DNA of 41,478 bases from Aeromicrobium sp. (GTDB taxonomy: Bacteria > Actinomycetota > Actinomycetes > Propionibacteriales > Nocardioidaceae). Each line of letters opens with the position of its first letter. Position 1 is the first letter of the stretch. Both the position numbers and the translations under genes were made by a program. The stretch covers positions 1 to 41,478 of the forward strand of contig JAOPXY010000095.1 of assembly GCA_025964895.1 (NCBI GenBank), written 5' to 3'. Below, one piece after another: positions 23,511 to 40,733 of this stretch. The notes under the pieces are model-generated. The model did not search any database. It was not told where the DNA came from and saw only the letters and a program-made list of their open reading frames with translations.

Positions 23511-24263
23511 TCAGGTCGCGAGGCTGCGTCCAATCCCCTGCGCGGCGACCCGTAGCGCGGCCACGAGACGGGCGCGATCGCGCTTGAAGCTCGGCACGAC
23601 GATGCCCAGCGCGGCCACGACACTGCCGTCCGCGACGCGGATGGGCACCGCGACGGAGCAGGCGCCGAGGCTCATCTCCTCGGTCGTGGTCGCGTAGCCC
23701 TCGCGGAGCACGCGGCGCAGCTCCTCGCGCAGGCGTCCCGGTTGCGAGATCGTGTACGGCGTCACGCGGGTCAGGCGGTCGAGCACCGCGAGCTGGACGT
23801 CGGGCGGCGCGTACGCGAGCAGCACCTTCCCGACCCCCGTCGCGTGCAGGGGCAAACGGGAGCCGATCTGGCTGACGACGGGCACCGACGCATGGCCCGA
23901 CACCCGGTCGAGGTACAGCACCTGGTCGCCGTCGCGCACCGCGAGATGCACCGTCGCGAGGGTCGCGCCGTAGATGTCGTTCAGGAACGGCGAGGCCACC
24001 TGACGCAGCCCGGACTGGGCCGGCGCCAGCAGCCCGAGATCCCACAACCGCCGACCCACCACGTACTCGCCGGACGGCTGACGGGTCACGGCACCCCACC
24101 CGACGAGCTCGGCGACCAGGCGGTGCGCCGTGGGCAGCGGCAGATCGCTGCGGCGCGCCATCTCGCTCAGCGTCAGGGCGCGGTGGTCTGCGTCGAACGT
24201 CCCCAGCAGCGCCAGCACGCGCGACGCGACAGTCTCGCCGGGCCGGGAGGCATTGCCCGCCAT
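23511..24263 (-). CDS. IclR-family transcriptional regulator
   Basis: Regulator of 250 residues. The N-terminal winged helix (about 12-75: ASRVLALLGTFDADHRALTLSEMARRS, then PLPTAHRLVAELVGWG) precedes the IclR effector-binding domain (about 80-245: RDGDQVLYLDRVSG, LPLHATGVGKVLLAY). IclR proteins commonly sense aromatic or small organic acids. The adjacent aromatic-acid MFS transporter is the likely target. ATG 24263 lies nine bases from a perfect palindrome that recurs upstream of the transporter. Confidence 0.93.
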   Translation of the reverse strand: MAGNASRPGETVASRVLALLGTFDADHRALTLSEMARRSDLPLPTAHRLVAELVGWGAVTRQPSGEYVVGRRLWDLGLLAPAQSGLRQVASPFLNDIYGATLATVHLAVRDGDQVLYLDRVSGHASVPVVSQIGSRLPLHATGVGKVLLAYAPPDVQLAVLDRLTRVTPYTISQPGRLREELRRVLREGYATTTEEMSLGACSVAVPIRVADGSVVAALGIVVPSFKRDRARLVAALRVAAQGIGRSLAT

Positions 24264-29493: not shown

Positions 29494-30126
29494 TCAGCTC
29501 TTCCAGTCTCGGAAGCCTATGACGATGAGGCGCATCTGACGGCGCGCGCCGTCCTTGATGCGCTCCTCCAGGTCGGGGCGGTGGTCGGGCATCTCCACGA
29601 CCTCCTCGGCATTCGACACCATGTTGCGGACGAACAGCCGCGACACCATCTGGACGTCGTCGGACGACCACGTCTCGATGTTGGGCAGCCGGGCCAGCAC
29701 GACCGCCAGCTCGCTGACGAACAGGTCGAGCTCGTGCTGGATCGCGCGGCGCACGGCCTCCGATCCCCCGACGCGCTCTCGCGCGACGAAGGCGAAGTGC
29801 GCCTTGCTCTGCTTGACCGCCTCGACGAGCACGTCGGCGGCCGCATCGATGATGTTGTCGAACACCTTCGGATCGCGCTGCGCCTCGCGGATCATCCGGC
29901 GCAGCGTCGAGAACGACTGCTCGACGAGGGCGAGGCCCAACTCGTCCATCGAGTCGAAGTGACGGTAGAACGCGGTCGGGACGATGCCGGCGTGCCGCGC
30001 GACCTGTCGCAGGCTGATCTGCGCGAACCCCTGCGTCTGCGCGAGCTCGAGCGCCGCGGCCAGGATCGCCTGGCGGGTGCGCCCCTTCTGCTCCTGGCGC
30101 GAGGCCGTCTGCGCCGACTCCGTCAT
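29494..30126 (-). CDS. TetR-family regulator of the lipid gene run
   Basis: Repressor of 210 residues. The helix-turn-helix lies at about 16-60: RTRQAILAAALELAQTQGFA, ISLRQVARHAGIVPTAFYRHF. The C-terminal domain (about 65-205) is helical and would bind a ligand, perhaps an acyl-CoA. ATG 30126 was preferred to an upstream Met because the HTH spacing from it is normal. It is divergent from the ferredoxin reductase-desaturase genes, with a 24-bp near-perfect palindrome in between. Family members beside DesA3-type desaturases are known to repress them in response to acyl-CoA (DesT-like logic); that role here is inference. Confidence 0.9.
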   Translation of the reverse strand: MTESAQTASRQEQKGRTRQAILAAALELAQTQGFAQISLRQVARHAGIVPTAFYRHFDSMDELGLALVEQSFSTLRRMIREAQRDPKVFDNIIDAAADVLVEAVKQSKAHFAFVARERVGGSEAVRRAIQHELDLFVSELAVVLARLPNIETWSSDDVQMVSRLFVRNMVSNAEEVVEMPDHRPDLEERIKDGARRQMRLIVIGFRDWKS

Positions 30127-30208
30127 GGCGTCAGCGTATCGCCCTGTCCCCGCAAGCCTTTCGGTGTACACCTGTGTGCCTCGTGCGCCAGGTCACCCGG
30201 CGCGCCTG

Positions 30209-30237
30209 TTGCGGTCGGCACTCACATCGGGCAGACT
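30209..30237 (+). promoter_or_regulatory. Candidate promoter for the desaturase operon
   Basis: TTGCGG (30209-30214) and CAGACT (30232-30237) have a 17-base spacing like -35 and -10 elements. The following palindrome would sit over the transcription start, a classic repressor position. The match to consensus is modest. Confidence 0.35.
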
Positions 30238-30261
30238 TTGAGTGTACGCACGTTCACTCAA
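30238..30261 (+). promoter_or_regulatory. TetR-type operator before the desaturase operon
   Basis: 24-bp imperfect palindrome: TTGAGTGTACGC and ACGTTCACTCAA match as inverted arms at 10 of 12 positions, including the outer seven bases. It lies 18-41 bases upstream of ATG 30279 and just downstream of a candidate -10 element. Length and shape suit a TetR dimer pair. A separate short palindrome, GGTGTACACC, lies at 30163-30172. Confidence 0.65.
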
Positions 30262-30278
30262 GTTCCGAGGAGGCTGTC

Positions 30279-31382
30279 ATGGGCGTCATCCGCAAGGCCC
30301 TCACCTCACGGCCCGTCACCACACTGACCTCTCCGAACACGATCGACGACTACCTCGAGCACATCCACCCGATGCTGGCGGCGGCCAACGTCCGCGCCCG
30401 CGTCGTCGCTGTCCACCGCGAGACCGGCGAGGCCAGCACCGTCGTGATGCGCCCGAACGGCGCCTGGAAGGGATTCGTCCCCGGCCAGCATGTCCAGTTC
30501 GGCGTCGAGGTCGAGGGCAAGCGCCGCATCCGCGTCTTCTCCGTGTCGAGCTCCCGCGCCGCGGGCCGCAGGAAGGGCAGGGGACGCACGTTCAGCGTCT
30601 CGGTCAAGGCCCACCCCGACGGCTACGTGTCGCAGTTCCTGCACCAGGAGCTGCAGCCCGGCACCATCGTGTACCTGTCGCAGGCCGAGGGCGAGTTCGT
30701 CCTGCCGCGCGAGGTGCCCGCCAACCTGCTCCTCGTCAGCGGCGGCTCCGGCGTCACGCCCGTCATGTCGATGCTGCGCACCCTGCGCGACACCGGCCAC
30801 CGCGGTCAGGTCACGTTCCTGCACTACGCGCGCAGCCGCGACGATGAGATGTTCACCGGCGAGCTCGACGAGATCGCCGCGACCACCGACTTCCGGGTCG
30901 TCCGCGTGTACACGCGACAGCCCGCGCCCGGCGCCGAGCTGGCCGGACGCTTCCAGGTCGACCACCTCAAGCACCTCGGCGTCGACGCGTCCGACACGCT
31001 GACCTACGTCTGCGGCCCCGCCGGTCTCATCGCGACGGTCCGCGACACGTACGACGAGCTCGGCGCCGGCGACCAGCTGCGCCTGGAGTACTTCAAGGTG
31101 CCGACGGTCGATCTCGACGCGGCGGACGCGACCGGCACCCTGTCGTTCGAGGACACCGCGATCGCGGCACCCAACACCGGCGCCACGATCCTCGAGCAGG
31201 CCGAGCTCGCCGGGCTGAAGCCCGACTTCGGCTGCCGCATGGGTGTCTGCAACACCTGCGCCATCAAGAAGAACAGCGGTGCCGTCCGCCACGTCGTCAG
31301 TGGCGAGGTCAACGCCAACACCGACGAAACCATCAAGATCTGTGTCCAGGTCCCCATCGGCGATGTCGCCGTCGCCCTCTGA
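30279..31382 (+). CDS. Ferredoxin reductase for the acyl desaturase
   Basis: Electron-transfer flavoprotein of 367 residues. A FAD-binding barrel (about 40-145, VPGQHVQFGVEVEGKRRIRVFSVSS) and an NADPH-binding domain (about 150-270, LLLVSGGSGVTPVMSML, YVCGPAGLI) are followed by a C-terminal plant-type [2Fe-2S] domain with Cys319, Cys324, Cys327 and Cys355. It would pass electrons from NADPH to the diiron desaturase encoded 16 bases downstream. This matches the Mycobacterium Rv3230c-DesA3 (Rv3229c) pair. The AGGAGG ribosome site is strong. Probable repression is by the divergent TetR protein. Confidence 0.94.
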   Translation: MGVIRKALTSRPVTTLTSPNTIDDYLEHIHPMLAAANVRARVVAVHRETGEASTVVMRPNGAWKGFVPGQHVQFGVEVEGKRRIRVFSVSSSRAAGRRKGRGRTFSVSVKAHPDGYVSQFLHQELQPGTIVYLSQAEGEFVLPREVPANLLLVSGGSGVTPVMSMLRTLRDTGHRGQVTFLHYARSRDDEMFTGELDEIAATTDFRVVRVYTRQPAPGAELAGRFQVDHLKHLGVDASDTLTYVCGPAGLIATVRDTYDELGAGDQLRLEYFKVPTVDLDAADATGTLSFEDTAIAAPNTGATILEQAELAGLKPDFGCRMGVCNTCAIKKNSGAVRHVVSGEVNANTDETIKICVQVPIGDVAVAL

Positions 31383-31398
31383 GTCCAGGAGAACCCGC

Positions 31399-32703
31399 AT
31401 GCCGTTCACGTTGAAGAAGAAGCCCAAGAACGCTCCCATCAAGCCCCGCAGCGCGAGCAAGCACAACGCGGCGCCCCTGACGCTGATCAACCCCTTCTCC
31501 GAGGAGCCGGCCACGATCGGCCTGGAGTACATGACCCGCGAGCAGCTCGACGAGTTCGGGCGCGAGCTCGACGCGGTGCGCCAGCGCGTGCTCGACGACC
31601 TCGGGCAGAAGGACGCCGACTACATCCGCCGCGTCATCAAGACGCAGCGCGCCGCCGAGGTCGCCGGCCGCATCGGCATCTTCATGCCGTTCTTCCCGCC
31701 CGCGTTCGTGGCCGGCATCGCGAGCCTCGGCGTGGCCAAGATCCTCGACAACATGGAGATCGGCCACAACGTCATGCACGGCCAGTACGACTGGATGAAC
31801 GACCCCATGGTCAACGGCGCGCGCTACGAGTGGGACAACGTCGCCCCGGCGCAGGACTGGAAGCACGGCCACAACTACATCCACCACACGTACACCAACA
31901 TCCACGGCATGGACCGCGACATCGGCTACAACCTGCTGCGCATCGACCCCGATCAGCCCTGGTACGGGACGCACCGGTTCAACCTGCCGCTCGCGACCGT
32001 CCTGATGTTCGTGTTCGAGTGGGGCGTCATGTACCACGGCGTCGAGCTCGACCAGTACCTGCAGGGCAAGATCTCCAAGGACGACTTCCAGGCCCGCAAG
32101 AAGCGCGCCATGAAGAAGATCCGCAAGCAGATCGTGAAGGACTACGTCGCGTGGCCCGCCCTCGGTCTCGCGCTCGTCCCGTTCGTCGGCTGGTGGGCGC
32201 CGCTGGCGATCCTCGGGGCCAACGTCGGGGCCAACGTCATCCGCAACATCTGGACGTTCCTCATCATCTTCTGCGGCCACTTCCCGGCCGAGGTCGAGAC
32301 GTTCGCCGAGGAGGACGCGCAGAACGAGTCACGCGGTCAGTGGTACCTGCGCCAGCTGCTCGGCTCGGCGAACATCAGCGGCAGCGCGCCGTTCCACGTG
32401 CTGACCGGCAACCTGAGCTACCAGATCGAGCACCACCTCTTCCCCGACATCCCGGCGCGCCGTTATCCCGAGGTGGCCGAGGACGTCAAGCGCCTCGTCG
32501 AGAAGTACGGCCTGAAGTACAACACCGGCCGCCTGTCCAAGCAGCTGCGCAGCGTCGCGCGACAGCTTGCCGTCTATGGCGCCAAGCCGAGCGATCCGCT
32601 GAAGGTCGGCAACAGCCCCGAGTCGAAGGCCCTGCGCCGGGCCAAGCGCGAGGAGGCCGCCCGTCGCCTCGAGCTGGCCGGTGAGACACAATTGACCTCC
32701 TAG
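31399..32703 (+). CDS. Acyl-CoA delta-9-type desaturase (DesA3-like)
   Basis: Integral membrane diiron desaturase of 434 residues that introduces a double bond into long-chain acyl chains. The three His boxes are present: GHNVMHGQYD (His123, His127), HGHNYIHHTY (His158, His162, His163) and YQIEHHLFP (His345, His346), plus His294 in CGHFPAE. Hydrophobic stretches lie at about 92-116, 197-212 and 252-292. It is co-directional with its reductase. Desaturated chains would be the natural substrate for the cyclopropane-synthase-like enzyme in the same run. Confidence 0.94.
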   Translation: MPFTLKKKPKNAPIKPRSASKHNAAPLTLINPFSEEPATIGLEYMTREQLDEFGRELDAVRQRVLDDLGQKDADYIRRVIKTQRAAEVAGRIGIFMPFFPPAFVAGIASLGVAKILDNMEIGHNVMHGQYDWMNDPMVNGARYEWDNVAPAQDWKHGHNYIHHTYTNIHGMDRDIGYNLLRIDPDQPWYGTHRFNLPLATVLMFVFEWGVMYHGVELDQYLQGKISKDDFQARKKRAMKKIRKQIVKDYVAWPALGLALVPFVGWWAPLAILGANVGANVIRNIWTFLIIFCGHFPAEVETFAEEDAQNESRGQWYLRQLLGSANISGSAPFHVLTGNLSYQIEHHLFPDIPARRYPEVAEDVKRLVEKYGLKYNTGRLSKQLRSVARQLAVYGAKPSDPLKVGNSPESKALRRAKREEAARRLELAGETQLTS

Positions 32704-32743
32704 GGCGGCGGGGAGCCTCGTCGACCGGGATGAGGAGAGCCTG

Positions 32744-32959
32744 ATGGCGCTGAGCCGGCGTGAGATCGTCAAGGACGTCGTCCAGCAGTCGGCCGAGGCC
32801 GCGATCGGCAGCGCAGGCCACGTCGTGGCGATCCTGTTCGAGACGGCACGCAAGATCACGACCGAGGTCGGCGCGTTCGGCACCGAGATCTTCGAGATCG
32901 CCGAGGCCAGCAAACGAGCGGGACAGGATGCCGAGGAAACCCATCCGGCGGCCGGGTAG
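32744..32959 (+). CDS. 71-residue predicted helical protein of unknown function
   Basis: Small protein between the desaturase and FAD oxidoreductase genes, with a good ribosome site (GAGGAGAG, seven bases before ATG 32744). The sequence is amphipathic and helical in appearance, with a short central hydrophobic stretch (GHVVAILFETA) and an acidic, disordered C-terminus ending HPAAG. I recognise no family. It does not look like a truncated copy of a neighbour. Its place in the operon suggests an accessory role in the lipid pathway, such as a membrane-peripheral helper, but this is speculation. Spacing and codon use support real coding. Confidence 0.7.
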   Translation: MALSRREIVKDVVQQSAEAAIGSAGHVVAILFETARKITTEVGAFGTEIFEIAEASKRAGQDAEETHPAAG

Positions 32960-32974
32960 CTACGAATCCTCCAC

Positions 32975-34267
32975 ATGGACACATCGTCACCCCGCCGCCG
33001 GGTCGCCGTCATCGGCTCGGGCGTCTCGGGACTCACCGCCGCCTACGTGCTCCGCAAGGAGTGGGACGTCACGGTCTTCGAGGCCGACGACCGCATCGGC
33101 GGTCACGCGCACACCCACACCGTCGACGACCTGGACGCCTCGCACCGCGTCGACAGCGGCTTCATCGTGCACAACGACCGCACCTACCCGATGCTGCGGC
33201 GCCTGTTCGGAGAGCTCGACGTCGAGGTGCACCCCACCGAGATGAGCATGAGCATCCACTGCGACGGCTGCGGCCTGGAGTACGCGGGGGGGCGCGGCGG
33301 CAAGGGCGTCTTCGCGCAGCGTCGCCGCCTGCTCGACGTGCGGTACATCGCGATGTTGCTGGCGGTCAAGCGATTCGGACGGCTCGCGCACGAGCTGCTG
33401 GACTCCCCCCAGTCGGCCACGGACCCGCAGACGTACGGCGACTTCCTGACGAGCCACGGCTTCTCGGACCACTTCGTGTCGCACTACGCGATCCCGGTCG
33501 TGTCGTGCGTGTGGTCGTCGGGTCACGAGACCGCGCTGGAGTACCCCGCGCGCTACCTGTTCGAGTTCCTCAAGCACCACGGCTTCTTGTCGATCAAGGG
33601 ATCGCCGCAGTGGTTCACGGTCGTCGGTGGCTCCGGCACCTACATCGACAAGGTGCGCTCGGCGATCGCCGGCACCGACGGCAGCAGCGTCCGCGCGTCC
33701 ACCCCCATCGTGTCGGTCGCACGCACCGCGGACGGGGTCGAGCTGACCGACGCCGCGGGCATGCTGCACCACGCCGACGCCGTGGTCATCGCGACCCACG
33801 CCGACGACGCCCTGGCCCTGCTGAGCGATCCGAGCGACGACGAGCGCGAGGTGCTGGGCGCCTTCGACTACTCCGACAACGAGGTGCTGCTGCACCGTGA
33901 TCCCCGCCAGCTGCCGACCGCGCCCGCGGCACGCTCGTCGTGGAACTACCGCATGGACGGGTGCAACGAGCGCAGCGCGCACTCGGCGGTCACCTACTGG
34001 ATGAACCGCCTGCAGGGCATCGAGAGCGCGGCGCCCTTCCTCGTGACGCTCAACGCATCGGATCGCATCGACCCGGCCACGGTCGTGGCGACGATGGCCT
34101 ACACGCATCCCATCTACACCCCGGCGTCCGTCGCGGCGCAGGGCGAGCTGAAGCGGTTGTTCACCGATCGCACGGTCTTCGCCGGGGCGTACCACGGGTG
34201 GGGCTTTCACGAGGACGGCTGCCGCTCCGGCGCCGACGCGGCCGCCGCGCTGGGCACCGCATGGTGA
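32975..34267 (+). CDS. FAD-dependent oxidoreductase (amine-oxidase-like, COG2907 type)
   Basis: Flavoprotein of 430 residues. The dinucleotide-binding motif VIGSGVSGLTAAYVL is at 12-26, followed by FEADDRIGGHAHTHT and RVDSGFIVHNDRTYPML. The C-terminus carries AGAYHGWGFHEDGCRSG. This family recurs immediately upstream of DUF1365 and cyclopropane-synthase-like genes in many bacteria, and as an N-terminal domain of plant cyclopropane synthases; its exact reaction is unsettled. The 3' end overlaps the DUF1365 gene by seven bases, so the trio is translationally coupled. Confidence 0.9.
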   Translation: MDTSSPRRRVAVIGSGVSGLTAAYVLRKEWDVTVFEADDRIGGHAHTHTVDDLDASHRVDSGFIVHNDRTYPMLRRLFGELDVEVHPTEMSMSIHCDGCGLEYAGGRGGKGVFAQRRRLLDVRYIAMLLAVKRFGRLAHELLDSPQSATDPQTYGDFLTSHGFSDHFVSHYAIPVVSCVWSSGHETALEYPARYLFEFLKHHGFLSIKGSPQWFTVVGGSGTYIDKVRSAIAGTDGSSVRASTPIVSVARTADGVELTDAAGMLHHADAVVIATHADDALALLSDPSDDEREVLGAFDYSDNEVLLHRDPRQLPTAPAARSSWNYRMDGCNERSAHSAVTYWMNRLQGIESAAPFLVTLNASDRIDPATVVATMAYTHPIYTPASVAAQGELKRLFTDRTVFAGAYHGWGFHEDGCRSGADAAAALGTAW

Positions 34268-35016
34268 CGGCCACGCTTCCGACCCTGCCGGCCCTGCCGG
34301 CCCTCGTCGAGGGCACGGTGAGCCACACCCGCCGCTCGCCCCTGCGGCACCGGTTCTCCAACCGCGTCTACCAATGGCTCGTCGACGTCGACGCCCTGCC
34401 GCGCATGCCCCGGGTGCTGCGCCCGTTCTCGACGTTTCACGCCGCCGACCACATCGGCGACCCCGCCGACACGATCCGCGCCAACCTCGAACGGTTCTGC
34501 GCCGCGCAGGGTGTCGACGTCTCCGGGCACCGTCTCCTGATGCTCGCCAACGCCCGGGTGCTGGGGCACACCTTCGACCCGCTCAGCGTCTTCTGGGCCA
34601 TCGCGCCGGACGCATCCCTGACCTGCATCGTGGCCGAGGTGCACAACACGTACGGCGAGCGCCATGCCTACCTCCTGCGCACCGACGACGCCGGCCGCGC
34701 CAGCGTCGACAAGGAGTTCTACGTCTCGCCGTTCTTCACGGTCGACGGGATGTACGACCTGCAGTTCGTGCTGACGCCCGACAAGGTCTCGTCCAGCGTC
34801 GTGCTCCGCCAGGGCGGCGACGCGGTGTTCAGCGCGACCTTCCGCGGCACCCCCCGCGAGGCCACGACCGGACGGCTGGCAAAACTTCTCATCAAAATGC
34901 CTTTGATGACCCGTCGAACCAGCTTGCTGATCCGAATACATGGTGTATGGCTCTGGATCCGCAGGCTGCCGGTCGTTCCCCGTCCGGCGCACGAACCGCA
35001 GGAAGGCACCCGATGA
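34261..35016 (+). CDS. DUF1365 family protein
   Basis: Conserved protein of 251 residues, of unknown biochemical function, found beside FAD oxidoreductase and cyclopropane-synthase-like genes. Conserved features: VSHTRRSPLRHRFSNRVYQWLVDVD, then LGHTFDPLSVFWAI and VHNTYGERHAYLL, and the closing LIRIHGVWLWIRRLPVVPRP. The last ~90 bases are locally AT-richer than their surroundings but encode conserved sequence. It overlaps the upstream stop by seven bases and the downstream start by four. It is probably part of a membrane or protein complex with the other two. Confidence 0.88.
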   Translation: MVTATLPTLPALPALVEGTVSHTRRSPLRHRFSNRVYQWLVDVDALPRMPRVLRPFSTFHAADHIGDPADTIRANLERFCAAQGVDVSGHRLLMLANARVLGHTFDPLSVFWAIAPDASLTCIVAEVHNTYGERHAYLLRTDDAGRASVDKEFYVSPFFTVDGMYDLQFVLTPDKVSSSVVLRQGGDAVFSATFRGTPREATTGRLAKLLIKMPLMTRRTSLLIRIHGVWLWIRRLPVVPRPAHEPQEGTR

Positions 35017-36242
35017 CGCAGCTCGCCACCCCCCGATGGGCCGGAATCACTCACACGCCGCGCACCCCTTTGAAGGCGCGCATCGCGAAGGCCATCCTGC
35101 GGCCGACCGTCAACTCCGTGCCGGTCCGCCTGTCGTTCGCCAACGGCACGACGTGGGGTGCCGGCGGCCCCGACTCCCCCACGATGCGCGTCGTCCGCCC
35201 GCGCGCATTCTTCGCGCGGCTCGGCGCCGACACCAAGATCGGCTTCGGCGAGGCGTACATGGCCGGCGACTGGACGGTCGCCGACGGCACCGATCTCGCC
35301 GAGCTGCTGATCCCGTTCGCACGGCGCATGGCGACGATCGTCCCGGTGCCGCTGCAGAGGTTCCGCGGCTTCGTCGACCAGAAGCTGCCGCACCACCAGC
35401 GCAACTCGGTCACGGGGTCGAGGAAGAACATCGAGGCGCACTACGACCTGTCCAACGACCTGTTCGCGCAGTTCCTCGACCCGTCGATGAGCTACTCCGC
35501 GGCGTGGTTCGAGAGCTCCGAGCAGAGCCTCGAGGCCGCTCAGCTGCGCAAGATCGACGGGATCCTCGACCAGGCCGGCGTCACCGAGGGCACCCGCGTG
35601 CTGGAGATCGGCAGCGGATGGGGCGCGCTCGCAATCCGGGCCGCCCAGCGCGGCGCCAAGGTCACGACGATCACGATCTCGGCCGAGCAGGCCGCCCTGG
35701 CCCGTGAGCGGTTCGCCGAGGCCGGGGTCGACGTCGACCTGCAGCTCGTCGACTACCGCGAGGTGACGGGCGAGTTCGACGCGATCGTCAGCGTCGAGAT
35801 GATCGAGGCGGTCGGCGAGGAGTACTGGCCGACGTACTTCGCGACGATCGACAAGCTCCTCGCCCCGGGCGGCCGAGTGTCGATCCAGGCGATCACGATG
35901 GATCACCACCGCTACCTCGCGACCCGTGACTCGTACGGCTGGATTCAGAAGTACATCTTCCCGGGCGGTCTCATCCCCTCCCTGCAGGCCATCGACTCGA
36001 CGCTCGCGACCCACACCTCGCTCGCCGTCACCGACCGCCGGTCGCTGGGCCAGGACTACGCCCGGACGCTGCGCGAGTGGCGCACCGCGTTCGACGCCAA
36101 CTGGGACACCATCAGCGCCCAGGGCTTCGACACGACCTTCCGCCGCATGTGGGAGTTCTACCTCGCCTATTGCGAGGCCGGCTTCAGCGTCGGCTACCTC
36201 GACGTGTTCCAGCTGCGCATGTCCCGTCCCGAGGAGGCCTGA
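35013..36242 (+). CDS. Cyclopropane-fatty-acid-synthase-like SAM methyltransferase
   Basis: SAM-dependent enzyme of 409 residues acting on double bonds of acyl chains in phospholipids, producing cyclopropane or methylated chains. An N-terminal SCP-2-like region (about 30-125) precedes the catalytic domain. That domain has NIEAHYDLSNDLFAQFLD (139-156), MSYSAAWF (159-166), the SAM motif VLEIGSGWG (196-204), and SVEMIEAVGEEYWPTYF. The length matches Cfa proteins. It is coupled to the DUF1365 gene by an ATGA overlap and followed after two bases by the whiB gene. Cyclopropane or 10-methyl product cannot be decided here. Confidence 0.92.
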   Translation: MTQLATPRWAGITHTPRTPLKARIAKAILRPTVNSVPVRLSFANGTTWGAGGPDSPTMRVVRPRAFFARLGADTKIGFGEAYMAGDWTVADGTDLAELLIPFARRMATIVPVPLQRFRGFVDQKLPHHQRNSVTGSRKNIEAHYDLSNDLFAQFLDPSMSYSAAWFESSEQSLEAAQLRKIDGILDQAGVTEGTRVLEIGSGWGALAIRAAQRGAKVTTITISAEQAALARERFAEAGVDVDLQLVDYREVTGEFDAIVSVEMIEAVGEEYWPTYFATIDKLLAPGGRVSIQAITMDHHRYLATRDSYGWIQKYIFPGGLIPSLQAIDSTLATHTSLAVTDRRSLGQDYARTLREWRTAFDANWDTISAQGFDTTFRRMWEFYLAYCEAGFSVGYLDVFQLRMSRPEEA

Positions 36243-36244
36243 CC

Positions 36245-36529
36245 ATGGCTGCCATCTCCCGCCTGCCCATGCCCATCCAGGAGACGTACGAGTGGCAGTA
36301 CGAGGGCGCCTGCCGCGACGCGGACCCCGAGACGTTCTTCTCCCCCGACGCCGAGCGCGGCCCGAGGCGGCGTGCGCGTGAGGCGGCGGCCAAGGCGATG
36401 TGCGCCGTGTGCCCCGTCGTCCAGGAGTGCCTGAACCACGCCCTGACCGTCCGCGAGCCGTACGGCGTCTGGGGCGGGCTCAACATCAACGAGCGCGACA
36501 GCATCCTCCAGCAGCGCGCCACCGGCTGA
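36245..36529 (+). CDS. WhiB-family iron-sulfur regulator
   Basis: Actinobacterial transcription factor of 94 residues with a redox-sensitive [4Fe-4S] cluster. The four ligands are Cys23, Cys53, Cys56 and Cys62 (EGACRDADPE, MCAVCPVVQEC). The diagnostic GVWGG turn is at 74-78, followed by a short basic or polar tail. The ATG is two bases after the methyltransferase stop, so the gene probably shares its transcript. It may link lipid modification to redox state; the subclass (WhiB1, 2 or other) was not assigned. Confidence 0.93.
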   Translation: MAAISRLPMPIQETYEWQYEGACRDADPETFFSPDAERGPRRRAREAAAKAMCAVCPVVQECLNHALTVREPYGVWGGLNINERDSILQQRATG

Positions 36530-36663: not shown

Positions 36664-37791
36664 TCAGAAGCCGAAGCGTGGCGAGTAGAGCTCGCCCTTC
36701 TTGGGCCAGGGGTTGATCTTGCACCCGCCGAGGCCCTTCGACTGCTGCTGCATGACGGGGGCCAGCTGGCCCTTTCCGCCGCAGCCCACGTGACCGCGCT
36801 CGAGCCAGTGGCCGGTCTCGTGGTTGACGACCATGTGGCGGTAGTCGCGCAGCGAGCCGTTCTTGCCGTTCCACGTCGGGGTGGCGTTCTTCCAGCGAGT
36901 CTCGTTGATGACGACGAAGCGCCCGACGCGGCAGCTGTACGTCGTGCTGCACGCCGACGAGAAGCTCGGCACCTTCGAGGCCTGGCTCAGGACCAGGGTG
37001 AAGTCACCGTTCGACGACACCCGCTTGAACCTGATGCCGTTCGCCCGCCAGCCACGGGGGTCGTCGTACGTCTCCTGGGCCTGCCTCTTGAAGGTCGCCA
37101 GGCTCGCGCCGACGGAGCCGCGGGTCGTCACGGTGTACGTGACGGCCTTGCGGACGCCATGGACGTGCCGGCCCGTGACCGCCTTCGACGTCGCGACGAC
37201 GGAGGTGAACCCCGCCCGCCTCGCCCGGACCTCGAAGCGGATCTTGCTGCCCGCATCGGCCGAGCGCACCCGGTAGTGCCGCCCGGTCGCGCCGGTGATC
37301 GGCCTGCCGTCGCGCAGCCAGCGGTAGTCGACGTCGTCGACCTTGCGCGACCACGAACCGACCCGACCGGTCAGCTTCCTGCCGTACACCCCGCTGCCGG
37401 AGATGCGGGGCCGCGACGTGGCGGTGAACGTCGCCGGGGCGACCGGAGCGGTAGGCGCACTGGTGGCCGTGACGGGATCGGAGCCGGCGCGCGATCCCGT
37501 CACGCGCACCGTGAACGAGGCACCGACGTCGTCGAGGCTCGAGAGCCGGTACGTCGCGTCGCCGCCGACGGGCACGCCGCCGCGGAACCACTGGTACGAG
37601 AACGTCACGTCCGGCGGCGACCACGTGCCCGGAGCCGCCGTCAGGGTCTGCTCGAACTGCGCGGCGCCGGAGATCGTCGGCGTTCCGGGGGTGATCACGT
37701 CGGCGGCCTGCGCCGGTGCGGCCAGCAGCCAGGACGCCGCCAGCAGCACCGACGCGATGACGGCGGGCAGGCTTCGCGTGCGCGGGGTCAT
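36664..37791 (-). CDS. Secreted DUF3152 zincin-like protein with two Ig-like repeats
   Basis: Predicted secreted protein of 375 residues. A signal peptide (basic MTPRTR, long hydrophobic core, AQAA cleavage) is followed by two similar ~75-residue Ig-like repeats (PTISGAAQFEQTLTAAPGTW and PRISGSGVYGRKLTGRVGSW, each with a Tyr-x-Trp strand). The C-terminal DUF3152 domain is at about 215-375. That domain has a zincin-like NHETGHWLERGH: His324, Glu325, His328 and His334, plus likely disulfide Cys337 and Cys357. The ATG 37791 was taken because GGAG lies eight bases before it; 37809 is the alternative, overlapping the glnE stop. It is a probable cell-surface metalloprotease or peptidoglycan-associated enzyme; the activity is untested. 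Confidence 0.85.
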   Translation of the reverse strand: MTPRTRSLPAVIASVLLAASWLLAAPAQAADVITPGTPTISGAAQFEQTLTAAPGTWSPPDVTFSYQWFRGGVPVGGDATYRLSSLDDVGASFTVRVTGSRAGSDPVTATSAPTAPVAPATFTATSRPRISGSGVYGRKLTGRVGSWSRKVDDVDYRWLRDGRPITGATGRHYRVRSADAGSKIRFEVRARRAGFTSVVATSKAVTGRHVHGVRKAVTYTVTTRGSVGASLATFKRQAQETYDDPRGWRANGIRFKRVSSNGDFTLVLSQASKVPSFSSACSTTYSCRVGRFVVINETRWKNATPTWNGKNGSLRDYRHMVVNHETGHWLERGHVGCGGKGQLAPVMQQQSKGLGGCKINPWPKKGELYSPRFGF

Positions 37792-37805
37792 GTCATGTTC
37801 TCCAG

Positions 37806-40733
37806 TCATTCGTAGAAGATGCGCTCCACCACGGCGCGGGCATGCCGCGTCGTCCGGAGGTAGTCGTCGACCATCTGCTCACCGTGGTCGATGCCGTAGC
37901 CGAGGAGGTGCGCGACGCCGGCGCGCTCGCCGGCCTGCTCGACCATCGACTCGGCCGGCTTGCCGCGCATCAGCACGACGGCGTTGCGGATGCGGCTGAC
38001 CAGGCGCCAGGCGGCCTCCAGCGTCTGCGCGTCGTCGGGCGAGACCAGGTCGGCCTTGACCGCTCCGTGCAGCGCGTCGAGGGTGCGGGTCGTGCGCATC
38101 TCGGGCACCGCATGGGCGTGCTGCATCTGCAGCAGCTGTACGGTCCACTCGACGTCGGCCAGCCCGCCCCGACCCAGCTTCAGATGGGTCTTGGCGTTGG
38201 CGCCGCGCGGGAGGCGTTCGGAGTCGACCCTCGCCTTGATGCGCCGGATCTCGCGGATCTCGGTCGCGGTCGCGCCGCCCTCGGGCCAACGCAGCGGATC
38301 GATCAGCGCCGTGAAGCGCTTGTTCAGGCCAGCGTCGCCGACCGTGGCGTTGGCCCGCAGCAGGGCCTGCGCCTCCCACACCGCCGACCACTTGCGGTAG
38401 TACGCCTCGTAGGCGGCGAACGTCCGCACGAGCGGCCCGTTCTTCCCCTCCGGACGCAGCTGGGCGTCGACCTCGAGCGGAGGATCGTCGCTCGGCGCGG
38501 CGAGCATTTTGCGCAGTCCCTGGGCGACCGCCATCGCGGCGTCGGCCGCCTCCTTCGCGTCGGCGCCCTCGACGGGGTCGTGGACGAACAGGACGTCGGC
38601 GTCCGAGCCGTAGCCGACCTCGCCGCCGCCGAGACGTCCCATCAGGATGATCGACAGACGGGTCGGCATGGCGCCGCGCTCGGCCTCGACCGCCGCGGTC
38701 GACGCCGTGAGGGCCCCCGCGATCGTCGCGGTCGAGATGTCCGTCAGCGCCTCCCCCACCTCGATGATGTCGAGGCGGCCCAGGACGTCCGCGATGCCGA
38801 CCCGCGACAGCTCGCGGCGCCGCACACGCCGGACGGCCCGGATCGCGTCGGCCGGGTTGTCGTGCCGTCCGGCGGCGAGACCGACCTCGGTGCGCAGGCG
38901 CTCGCGCTCCAGGGGCCGGAGCTCGGCGTCGTCGCCGAGCAGGGCGACCGAGTCCGGAGCCCGCAGGATCAGGTCCGTCACGTAGCGGCTGGACGACAGG
39001 ACGCGCGCCAGCTGCTCGGCGCCCTCACCCTCGTCGCGCAGCTTGCGCAGGTACCAGTGCGTCTCGCCAAGGCCCTCGGAGATCTTGCGGAACGCCAGCA
39101 GGCCGCCGTCGGGATCGGGCGACTCGGCGAACCACGCCATCATGGCCGGCAGCAGCGAGCGCTGGATCGACGCGCGGCGCGACAGCCCCGACGTCAGCGC
39201 CTGGATGTGGGTCAGCGCGCCCTTCGGATCGCTGAAGCCCAGCGCCGTGAGTCGCTGCTCGGCGGCCAGCGTCGTGAGGCGAAGGCTGTCGGTGGGCAGC
39301 GACGCGACGGCCTCGAGCAGCGGCTGGTAGAACAGCTTCTCGTGCAGACGACGGACGATGCGCCGGTGCGCCTGCCACTCCTTCGTGAGGTTCTCGGCCG
39401 GATTCTGCCGGAACCCCATGCTGCGGCCGATGCGTCGCAGGTCCTCGACGTCGTCCGGCACGATGTGGCTGCGCCTGAGCCGGAACAGCTGGATCCGGTG
39501 CTCCAGGGTGCGGAGGAACTCGTAGGCCTCCTCCATCGCGGCGCCGTCGCGGCGGCCGACGTACCCGCCGTCGATCAGCGCCTGCAGCGCGTCGAGCGTC
39601 GTGGGGCTGCGCAGCGACTCGTCGGCGCGGCCGTGGACGAGCTGCAGCAGCTGAACCGCGAACTCGACGTCGCGCAGGCCGCCCGCCCCCAGCTTTAGCT
39701 GACGGTCCCGATGGGCGACGGGAATGTTCTCGATGACCCGTCGGCGCATCGCCCGCACGTCGGCGACGAAGTTCTCCCGGGTGCTCGCGAACCAGATCCT
39801 GGGCGACAGCGCGTCGAGGTAGGCCTGCCCCAGCTCCTCGTCGCCCGCGGCGAAACGGGCCTTGAGCAGCGCCTGGAACTCCCACGTGCTGGCCCACTTG
39901 TCGTAGTACGCGACGTGGCTCGCGAGGGAGCGGACGAGCGCGCCGTGCTTGCCCTCGGGTCGCAGCTCGGCGTCGACCTCCCAGATCGTCCCCTCGGCGG
40001 TGTGCTCGCGGCACAGCTTCATGACAGCGGACGCGAGGCGGGTTGCGGCCGTCGCCGCCTCGTGCCCGTCGCATCCCTCGGCCACGTCGTGCACGAAGAT
40101 CACGTCGACGTCGCTGAGGTAGTTGAGCTCACGGCCGCCGGTCTTGCCCATCGCCATGATCGTCAGCCGGCAGCGTTCGGAGCCCGGATCGTTGGCGCGG
40201 GCGATCTCGAGCGCCGCCCCGAGGGTTGCGATCGCAAGGTCCGACAGCTCGGCCGATGACTCCCTGAACGTCGTCAGCGCGGTCAGGTCGCGGGCCGCGA
40301 TGTGCAGCAGCTTGCGGTAGTACGCGACGCGCAGCTCGTCGGCGGTCGTCGCCTCGGCCATCTGGCGCCGCCGGACGTCGAGCGGGATCGGTGTCGTGGA
40401 GAGCTCGCCGGCGGCCAGGTCGCGCACGTGCTCGGGATGCCGGGCCAGGAACCCTCCGAGTGCCTCGCTCGTGCCCAGGACGACCAGCAGGCGCTGGCGC
40501 AGCTCGGCGTCGGACTGCACGAGCTCCAGCAGCTCGGCGGCGCCCATGCGGTCGGCGATGCGCTCCAGCGACGACAGCGCCGTGTCGGGGCTGGCGACCG
40601 AGGCGATCTGGTCGACGAGCTCGGGCGGGACGTCGCCCAGCGCCGTCAGCGTCGCCAGTGCCGCCTCGCCGTCCCGGAAGCCCTTCCGGGCCAGCGCGAC
40701 GGCCAGTTCACGTGCGTCGGTAGCCACCGCCAC
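37806..40733 (-). CDS. glnE: Bifunctional glutamine synthetase adenylyltransferase/deadenylylase
   Basis: GlnE of 975 residues from a GTG start, adding and removing AMP on glutamine synthetase to tune nitrogen assimilation. Two nucleotidyltransferase halves are each marked by the metal-binding signature: KTGGRELNYLSDVDVIF (about 197-213, with Asp208 and Asp210) and LGGGEVGYGSDADVLFVHD in the second half. The PII-linker regions (KLGAGGLRDVEFAVQLLQL and KLGRGGLADVEWTVQLLQM) are duplicated, showing the tandem origin. It is preceded by a GlnA2-like glutamine synthetase gene, as in Mycobacterium. The stop overlaps the upstream ATG of the DUF3152 reading frame. Confidence 0.96.
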   Translation of the reverse strand: MAVATDARELAVALARKGFRDGEAALATLTALGDVPPELVDQIASVASPDTALSSLERIADRMGAAELLELVQSDAELRQRLLVVLGTSEALGGFLARHPEHVRDLAAGELSTTPIPLDVRRRQMAEATTADELRVAYYRKLLHIAARDLTALTTFRESSAELSDLAIATLGAALEIARANDPGSERCRLTIMAMGKTGGRELNYLSDVDVIFVHDVAEGCDGHEAATAATRLASAVMKLCREHTAEGTIWEVDAELRPEGKHGALVRSLASHVAYYDKWASTWEFQALLKARFAAGDEELGQAYLDALSPRIWFASTRENFVADVRAMRRRVIENIPVAHRDRQLKLGAGGLRDVEFAVQLLQLVHGRADESLRSPTTLDALQALIDGGYVGRRDGAAMEEAYEFLRTLEHRIQLFRLRRSHIVPDDVEDLRRIGRSMGFRQNPAENLTKEWQAHRRIVRRLHEKLFYQPLLEAVASLPTDSLRLTTLAAEQRLTALGFSDPKGALTHIQALTSGLSRRASIQRSLLPAMMAWFAESPDPDGGLLAFRKISEGLGETHWYLRKLRDEGEGAEQLARVLSSSRYVTDLILRAPDSVALLGDDAELRPLERERLRTEVGLAAGRHDNPADAIRAVRRVRRRELSRVGIADVLGRLDIIEVGEALTDISTATIAGALTASTAAVEAERGAMPTRLSIILMGRLGGGEVGYGSDADVLFVHDPVEGADAKEAADAAMAVAQGLRKMLAAPSDDPPLEVDAQLRPEGKNGPLVRTFAAYEAYYRKWSAVWEAQALLRANATVGDAGLNKRFTALIDPLRWPEGGATATEIREIRRIKARVDSERLPRGANAKTHLKLGRGGLADVEWTVQLLQMQHAHAVPEMRTTRTLDALHGAVKADLVSPDDAQTLEAAWRLVSRIRNAVVLMRGKPAESMVEQAGERAGVAHLLGYGIDHGEQMVDDYLRTTRHARAVVERIFYE

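Follow-up and report, generated by a model that had tools for sequence, protein, structure and literature searches.

We suggest that the gene run at positions 29494-36529 of the window (the whole stretch of Aeromicrobium sp. DNA analysed here, 41,478 nucleotides of contig JAOPXY010000095.1) probably directs the synthesis of methyl-furan fatty acids through two linked modules, a fatty acid desaturase supply of the DesT type and a trio of genes homologous to ufaD, ufaO and ufaM; this reading is drawn from sequence comparison. The initial annotation had described the joint chemistry of the trio, an FAD (flavin adenine dinucleotide) oxidoreductase, a DUF1365 protein and a cyclopropane synthase-like protein, as unsettled. 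It is in fact known from proteobacteria, where UfaD is an FAD desaturase, UfaO is a DUF1365 protein shown to form the furan and UfaM is a methylase similar to cyclopropane fatty acid (CFA) synthases (PMC7380195), so the product that we predict is a methyl-furan fatty acid and not a cyclopropane. According to the same paper, RPA2571-2570-2569 of Rhodopseudomonas palustris are furan fatty acid genes, and their locus tags give the order found in the window.

Every gene named in the initial annotation was found as a complete open frame backed by family matches. The trio consists of the UfaD homologue, a predicted FAD-dependent fatty acid desaturase of 430 amino acids (32975-34267, plus strand; amine-oxidase-like, PF01593), the UfaO homologue, a DUF1365 protein of 250 amino acids and predicted furan-forming oxygenase (34264-35016, plus strand; PF07103, 215.7 bits), and the UfaM homologue, a putative S-adenosylmethionine (SAM)-dependent fatty acyl methylase of the CFA family with 409 amino acids (35013-36242, plus strand; CMAS, 293 bits). 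The tight overlaps annotated within the trio are 4 nucleotides at both the FAD/DUF1365 and the DUF1365/methylase junctions, and 2 nucleotides separate the methylase from the following whiB gene. The Ufa reference proteins were reached by using ChrR of Rhodobacter sphaeroides as the query, the gene of which lies close to ufaD-ufaO (PMC3818230); 147 loci were confirmed and the best 80 kept, with Cereibacter johrii (ChrR 96% identical) and Luteovulum azotoformans (89%) as the top two and C. sphaeroides not among the best 80 of 147. Within the ChrR locus of C. johrii the window FAD protein matched UfaD (38% identity, E 5e-79) and the window DUF1365 protein matched UfaO (28%, E 1e-19). In the reverse direction C. 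johrii UfaD detected the window FAD protein as the top match of the window's genome (2.0e-80, next 3.0e-5), and the window DUF1365 is the sole DUF1365 found in that genome. The methylase matched C. johrii UfaM in a whole-genome search (44%, E 8e-81, next best 4e-6), UfaM was its best match in both the C. johrii and L. azotoformans genomes, and C. johrii UfaM returned the window methylase first (2.6e-81), ahead of two others (1.2e-50 and 4.6e-49). The methylase pair is thus reciprocal best by sequence, and UfaD and UfaO were matched genome-wide in one direction.

The methylase active site points the same way. We compared the residues at the positions of Escherichia coli CFA synthase C139, E239, H240, H266, I268 and Y317, among which Glu239, His266 and Tyr317 hold bicarbonate (PMC11387697). 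The set is C/E/H/H/I/Y in the E. coli and Lactobacillus acidophilus CFA synthases, S/E/A/Q/I/Y in UfaM of C. johrii and L. azotoformans and all of 14 further alphaproteobacterial enzymes, and A/E/A/Q/I/Y in the window methylase, which agrees with UfaM at five of the six positions, with A replacing S at the sixth, and differs from the CFA synthases at C139, H240 and H266. For the comparison with relatives we fetched 66 FAD-DUF1365 loci, 38 from 37 genomes of the genus and 28 from other genera (G065, a 132-base edge match, was omitted). Their trio methylases carry S/E/A/Q/I/Y in 46 of 66 and A/E/A/Q/I/Y in 18 of 66, and the remaining two (L031, L074) miss some sequence; this count leaves out eight second copies (mostly C/E/H/Q/M/Y), a separate CFA gene (L100) and two pieces of L099. 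A contiguous trio is also described in Halomonas, the methylase of which yields 11-methyloctadec-12-enoate in E. coli (PMC12089945).

The trio genes tend to occur together. Among 49 genomes of the genus, the window's own included, DUF1365 is present in 38; a UfaM-type methylase (E at most 1e-75) and DUF1365 occur together in 37, neither in 11 and DUF1365 alone in one, the fragmentary assembly G016 (Fisher p 4e-10, uncorrected for kinship). The FAD gene lies upstream of DUF1365 at all 66 fetched loci, and the methylase follows DUF1365 at 33/38 loci of the genus and 27/28 of other genera. In four genomes (G020, G023, G026, G035) the desaturase locus retains a small gene, UfaM (83-85% identical) and WhiB; their FAD-DUF1365 pair is less similar (about 51% and 45% identical) and sits elsewhere, the stretch read around it holding no methylase, so that the three functions stay together though the genes are apart. 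In L061 (7728-9731) UfaD-like and UfaO-like parts are fused in one frame of 668 amino acids; two CFA-family genes and DUF1295 come next.

The AlphaFold2 model of the DUF1365 protein (52 sequences, pLDDT, the predicted local distance difference test score, 87.6) has strands followed by a long helix and in its fold weakly resembles FABP-like, nitrobindin and spirocyclase barrels (Foldseek E 1.4e-3; VIA Z 7.0, root-mean-square deviation 4.4 over 140), a similarity too weak for reading a cofactor. A barrel able to hold lipid would suit an oxygenase of acyl chains but is no proof. The protein had no match among solved structures at E 1, and among viral contigs searched for DUF1365 relatives none of 34 pattern matches was confirmed.

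The desaturase half opens with a divergent TetR gene encoding a DesT/FabR-like repressor of 210 amino acids (29494-30126, minus strand; PF00440); the initial annotation had used a frame that began 45 nucleotides too early, the ATG giving 30126. Its best match in the PDB is DesT (3lsj, E 1.6e-32 over residues 8-209; next match 2.3e-9), and it scored 126.3 bits against the NCBIfam FabR model, under the cut-off of 151. DesT tells saturated from unsaturated acyl-CoA (PMC8872791), and by analogy the window TetR would sense the same ratio; its annotation as an acyl-CoA-type regulator agrees with the apparent DesT/FabR kind, where such sensing is known. The ferredoxin-type flavin/2Fe-2S reductase of 367 amino acids (30279-31382, plus strand; PF00970, PF00175, PF00111) comes before, not after as had been stated, the membrane fatty acid desaturase of 434 amino acids (31399-32703, plus strand; PF00487, 109.6 bits; His boxes HNVMH/HNYIHH/QIEHH), of which it is the probable electron donor. 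The desaturase had no match among solved structures at 0.01.

We detected an operator-like palindrome, AGTGTACGCACGTTCACT (30241-30258, no strand), inside TTGAGTGTACGCACGTTCACTCAA, 20 nucleotides upstream of the reductase start. The pattern AGTGNACNNNNGTNCACT was searched within 100 nucleotides upstream of reductase starts, leaving out loci without such a start; it is exact at 28/41 loci, has one mismatch at 12/41 and six mismatches at one (L068), and none of 200 mononucleotide shuffles of each upstream stretch reached one mismatch or fewer. The only other exact palindrome in the assembly (contig C42, L107:8578-8607) lies 11 nucleotides before a plsC-like acyltransferase gene (PF01553). Among plsC loci, the best-scoring 30 of 49 genomes with a match, the site is exact in 11, has one mismatch in 11, two in three and four in five, and shuffles of these upstream stretches gave one mismatch in 0.02%.

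Taken together, these data suggest the following pathway. The reductase/desaturase pair would introduce a double bond into saturated acyl chains, probably at delta-9, and a DesT-like repressor would act at the palindrome before these genes and at the second one before the plsC-like acyltransferase. UfaM would methylate the double bond using SAM, UfaD would turn the methyl-branched chain into a conjugated diene by desaturation and UfaO would insert an oxygen atom from O2, closing the furan ring, on acyl chains carried by phospholipid. If UfaM handles oleate as it does vaccenate, 8,11-epoxy-9-methyl-octadeca-8,10-dienoate would be formed. The WhiB3-type protein probably links expression to the redox state.

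Several observations weigh against this proposal. The identity to UfaO is just 28%; the methylase match holds an in-frame TGA in three genomes of the genus (G013, G019, G031), and the G034 methylase (L031) appears to be without an internal stretch covering position E239. When one mismatch was tolerated, the operator pattern was matched genome-wide three times in the window's genome and the reversed control four times, and over whole genomes it stayed at control level among the matches listed; the analysis therefore kept to exact sites and to those at gene starts. A paper on the actinobacterium Agrococcus reports a 12-carbon furan fatty acid but failed to find a UfaO homologue there (PMC9323897). 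Old synteny near glnE, the cotton enzyme GhCPS1 and Mycobacterium tuberculosis UfaA1, discussed below, belong to the same side of the balance.

The alternative that survives best, a serious possibility although not the one we expect, is that two independent modules share an old glnE/glnA neighbourhood, DesT controlling the desaturase half only and the trio having its own promoter and another purpose. A desaturase orthologue with at least 69% identity is present in 45 of the 49 genomes of the genus, and the desaturase and FAD-DUF1365 genes are together in 29 (28 and the window), the conservation in related genomes that the initial annotation had asked to be checked; this neighbourhood is more than chance. 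The desaturase adjoins FAD-DUF1365 at 29/38 loci of the genus and 2/28 of other genera. glnE was in the fetched stretch at 29/31 loci with both halves, 13/14 desaturase loci without the full trio and 11/35 FAD-DUF1365 loci without the desaturase, suggesting that the linkage of the halves is in part old synteny near glnE/glnA, through which the two may have become neighbours. Each half is also found alone. From the 16 genomes of the genus with a desaturase orthologue and no adjoining FAD-DUF1365 we fetched 14 loci (G016 and G048 were omitted as fragmentary). Besides the four described above, nine of the 14 have TetR, reductase and desaturase and no small gene, methylase or WhiB; in the last one, G029 (L236), a small gene and WhiB stand 3' of the desaturase, the trio is gone and a piece similar by eye to the C-terminal part of DUF1365 is perhaps a deletion scar. 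G007 lost the reductase and desaturase and kept TetR, the small gene, the trio and WhiB.

The small gene, missed by the initial annotation, encodes a conserved protein of 71 amino acids (32744-32959, plus strand). Relatives of it occur in 29 of the loci fetched, and neither Pfam nor NCBIfam gave a match at E 0.01. Its median pN/pS (ratio of non-synonymous to synonymous differences) is 0.27 in 28 comparisons with the window (29 loci), one near-identical small gene (L236) being omitted. A promoter-like element, GTGAGACACAATTGACC (32681-32697, plus strand; the only exact copy in the assembly), overlaps the 3' end of the desaturase gene. In 29 of 30 sequences an ACA[AC]T core flanked by conserved bases stands upstream of the small gene; a regular expression on the core anchored the alignment, which inflates the core columns. 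G007 (L073), which has lost its desaturase, retains the element. Stems of 11-18 base pairs lie 3' of the desaturase at 5/31 loci (G034, which ends in TTTT, G039, G004, G028 and G018), a count that leaves out stems of 7-9 base pairs and two 14-base-pair stems (G019, G030) inside the frame of the small gene. These features would favour independent modules. On the other side, the halves are kept together in most genomes of the genus, the desaturase product would be the methylase substrate, as fits coupling, and in the window the gap of 40 nucleotides between the desaturase and the small gene has no terminator-like site on the plus strand; the three terminator-like matches in the stretch are all on the minus strand within genes, and the Sigma-70 promoter search of the window stretch found none. 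Read-through plus an internal start is likely in the window, and separate units in some relatives. The neighbourhood is a conserved lipid-modification unit, as the initial annotation held; a single complete operon is doubtful, given the promoter-like element, the hairpins and the halves separate elsewhere.

The cyclopropane product, one of those suggested by the initial annotation, ranks below methyl-furan, and we consider it unlikely that the trio makes cyclopropane fatty acids in the manner of the plant synthases, which fuse an FAD domain to a CFA-family methylase and carry the S/Q changes, with DUF1365 as an accessory. Cotton GhCPS1 has S at C139 and Q at H266 and makes cyclopropane fatty acids, and its yield falls by about 70% once the oxidase domain is deleted (PMC3132707), so these two positions alone do not exclude cyclopropanation. 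Against it stand the A, A and Q of the window methylase at C139, H240 and H266, where the E. coli and L. acidophilus synthases have C, H and H, and its agreement with UfaM at five of the six positions; DUF1365 would have no evident step in cyclopropanation, and when the Agrobacterium counterparts of the two plant domains were expressed in yeast, no cyclopropane fatty acid was formed (PMC3132707).

Of the methyl-branched products raised by the initial annotation, 10-methyl branching is probably served elsewhere. In the window's own genome, contig C213 (L235:1717-4373) encodes a FAD_binding_4 protein, the family to which we take BfaA to belong, and after it a CMAS protein in which the C/E/H/H/I/Y set is complete, a bfaAB-like pair probably for 10-methylstearate. 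bfaAB is described as an FAD oxidase with a CFA-like protein that has a conserved bicarbonate site, and the bfa genes are called distinct from ufaA1 (PMC7791843); a FAD_binding_4 partner and a bicarbonate-site methylase are both found in the C213 pair, and the window pair has PF01593 and a methylase without the C and H. That the trio itself makes 10-methyl (tuberculostearic-type) or other saturated methyl-branched chains, with a methylene from the methylase reduced by the FAD protein, is very improbable, with the report of 10-methylstearate formation from oleate by M. tuberculosis UfaA1 in crude extract (told in PMC5660069) set against the separate C213 pair, the distinctness of the bfa genes and the amine-oxidase-like window FAD protein, as in UfaD. 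A third CFA-like methylase of the window's genome (contig C50, L234:44-1111) has the unusual set S/E/H/Q/M/Y, near that of second copies following the trio in several relatives.

The run ends with a WhiB3-type iron-sulphur regulator of 94 amino acids (36245-36529, plus strand; Cys 23/53/56/62, C-X29-C-X2-C-X5-C). Among solved WhiB proteins it is closest to WhiB3 (1e-26, and 9.7e-16 for WhiB1), and WhiB3 is tied to redox and lipids; the four cysteines and the WhiB3 likeness are consistent with the redox regulator annotated at this end. WhiB follows trio genes at 25/38 loci of the genus and 4/28 of other genera. We tentatively propose an actinobacterial rewiring, in which the trio would be placed under a DesT-type acyl-CoA sensor (shared with the desaturase and plsC) and a WhiB3-type redox input instead of a stress-sigma setting (RpoE-ChrR, SigK), and the protein of 71 amino acids would be a new component, for example a membrane anchor or UfaO partner.

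On the methyl-furan reading the pathway is a known one, and what is new is its setting, in regulation and in substrate supply. With the Ufa pathway described for R. sphaeroides and for R. palustris (PMC7380195) the window shares the three homologous enzymes, the R. palustris order and the UfaM active-site set; it adds the desaturase/reductase, the small gene, the DesT-like TetR and the WhiB3-type gene, whereas the alphaproteobacterial loci have RpoE and ChrR beside ufaD-ufaO, and the predicted substrate is delta-9 rather than delta-11. With the Pseudomonas aeruginosa DesT operon it shares a DesT-like TetR, an adjacent desaturase and reductase and a conserved palindrome (a likeness of arrangement), but the window has the furan trio downstream and the second operator-like site before the plsC-like gene. 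The SigK-linked trio of Mycobacteriales, seen in Tsukamurella (L103), has the same FAD-DUF1365-methylase order, with sigK and an anti-sigma factor downstream and no desaturase in the stretch read; Rv0449c-Rv0447c is presumably a trio of this type. The BfaAB pair likewise joins an FAD protein to a CFA-family methylase, but has the C/E/H/H/I/Y set and no DUF1365, and plant GhCPS has an FAD domain and a CFA-family methylase with S and Q, but in one fused two-domain protein with a cyclopropane product (PMC3132707). The Ufa enzymes and their broad distribution have been pointed out already (PMC7380195), and in our literature search we recognised no paper that credits an actinobacterial UfaD-UfaO-UfaM trio with furan fatty acids.

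Methyl-furan fatty acids, which are described as radical scavengers, are thus predicted for a group of actinobacteria, and the genes to test are named. A rival reading is also offered for similar trios of Mycobacteriales, of which M. tuberculosis UfaA1, tied to 10-methylstearate on disputed evidence, is presumably a part. The distant and naturally varied set of UfaO proteins, including the FAD-DUF1365 fusion and the linked protein of 71 amino acids, bears on the question of the cofactor and reductant of the DUF1365 oxygenase.

At the trio locus of a genome of the same order (L038:11097-11981) we detected a divergent gene for a MerR regulator with B12-binding domains, which we take to resemble the LitR/CarH photoreceptors. 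Downstream of the run the minus strand of the window (36664-40733) encodes a DUF3152 protein and glnE, the latter being near the trio or desaturase loci of many relatives. At 23967-24064 ARAGORN called a tRNA-Ala (ggc) of 98 bases, unusually long and within a region of long open frames.

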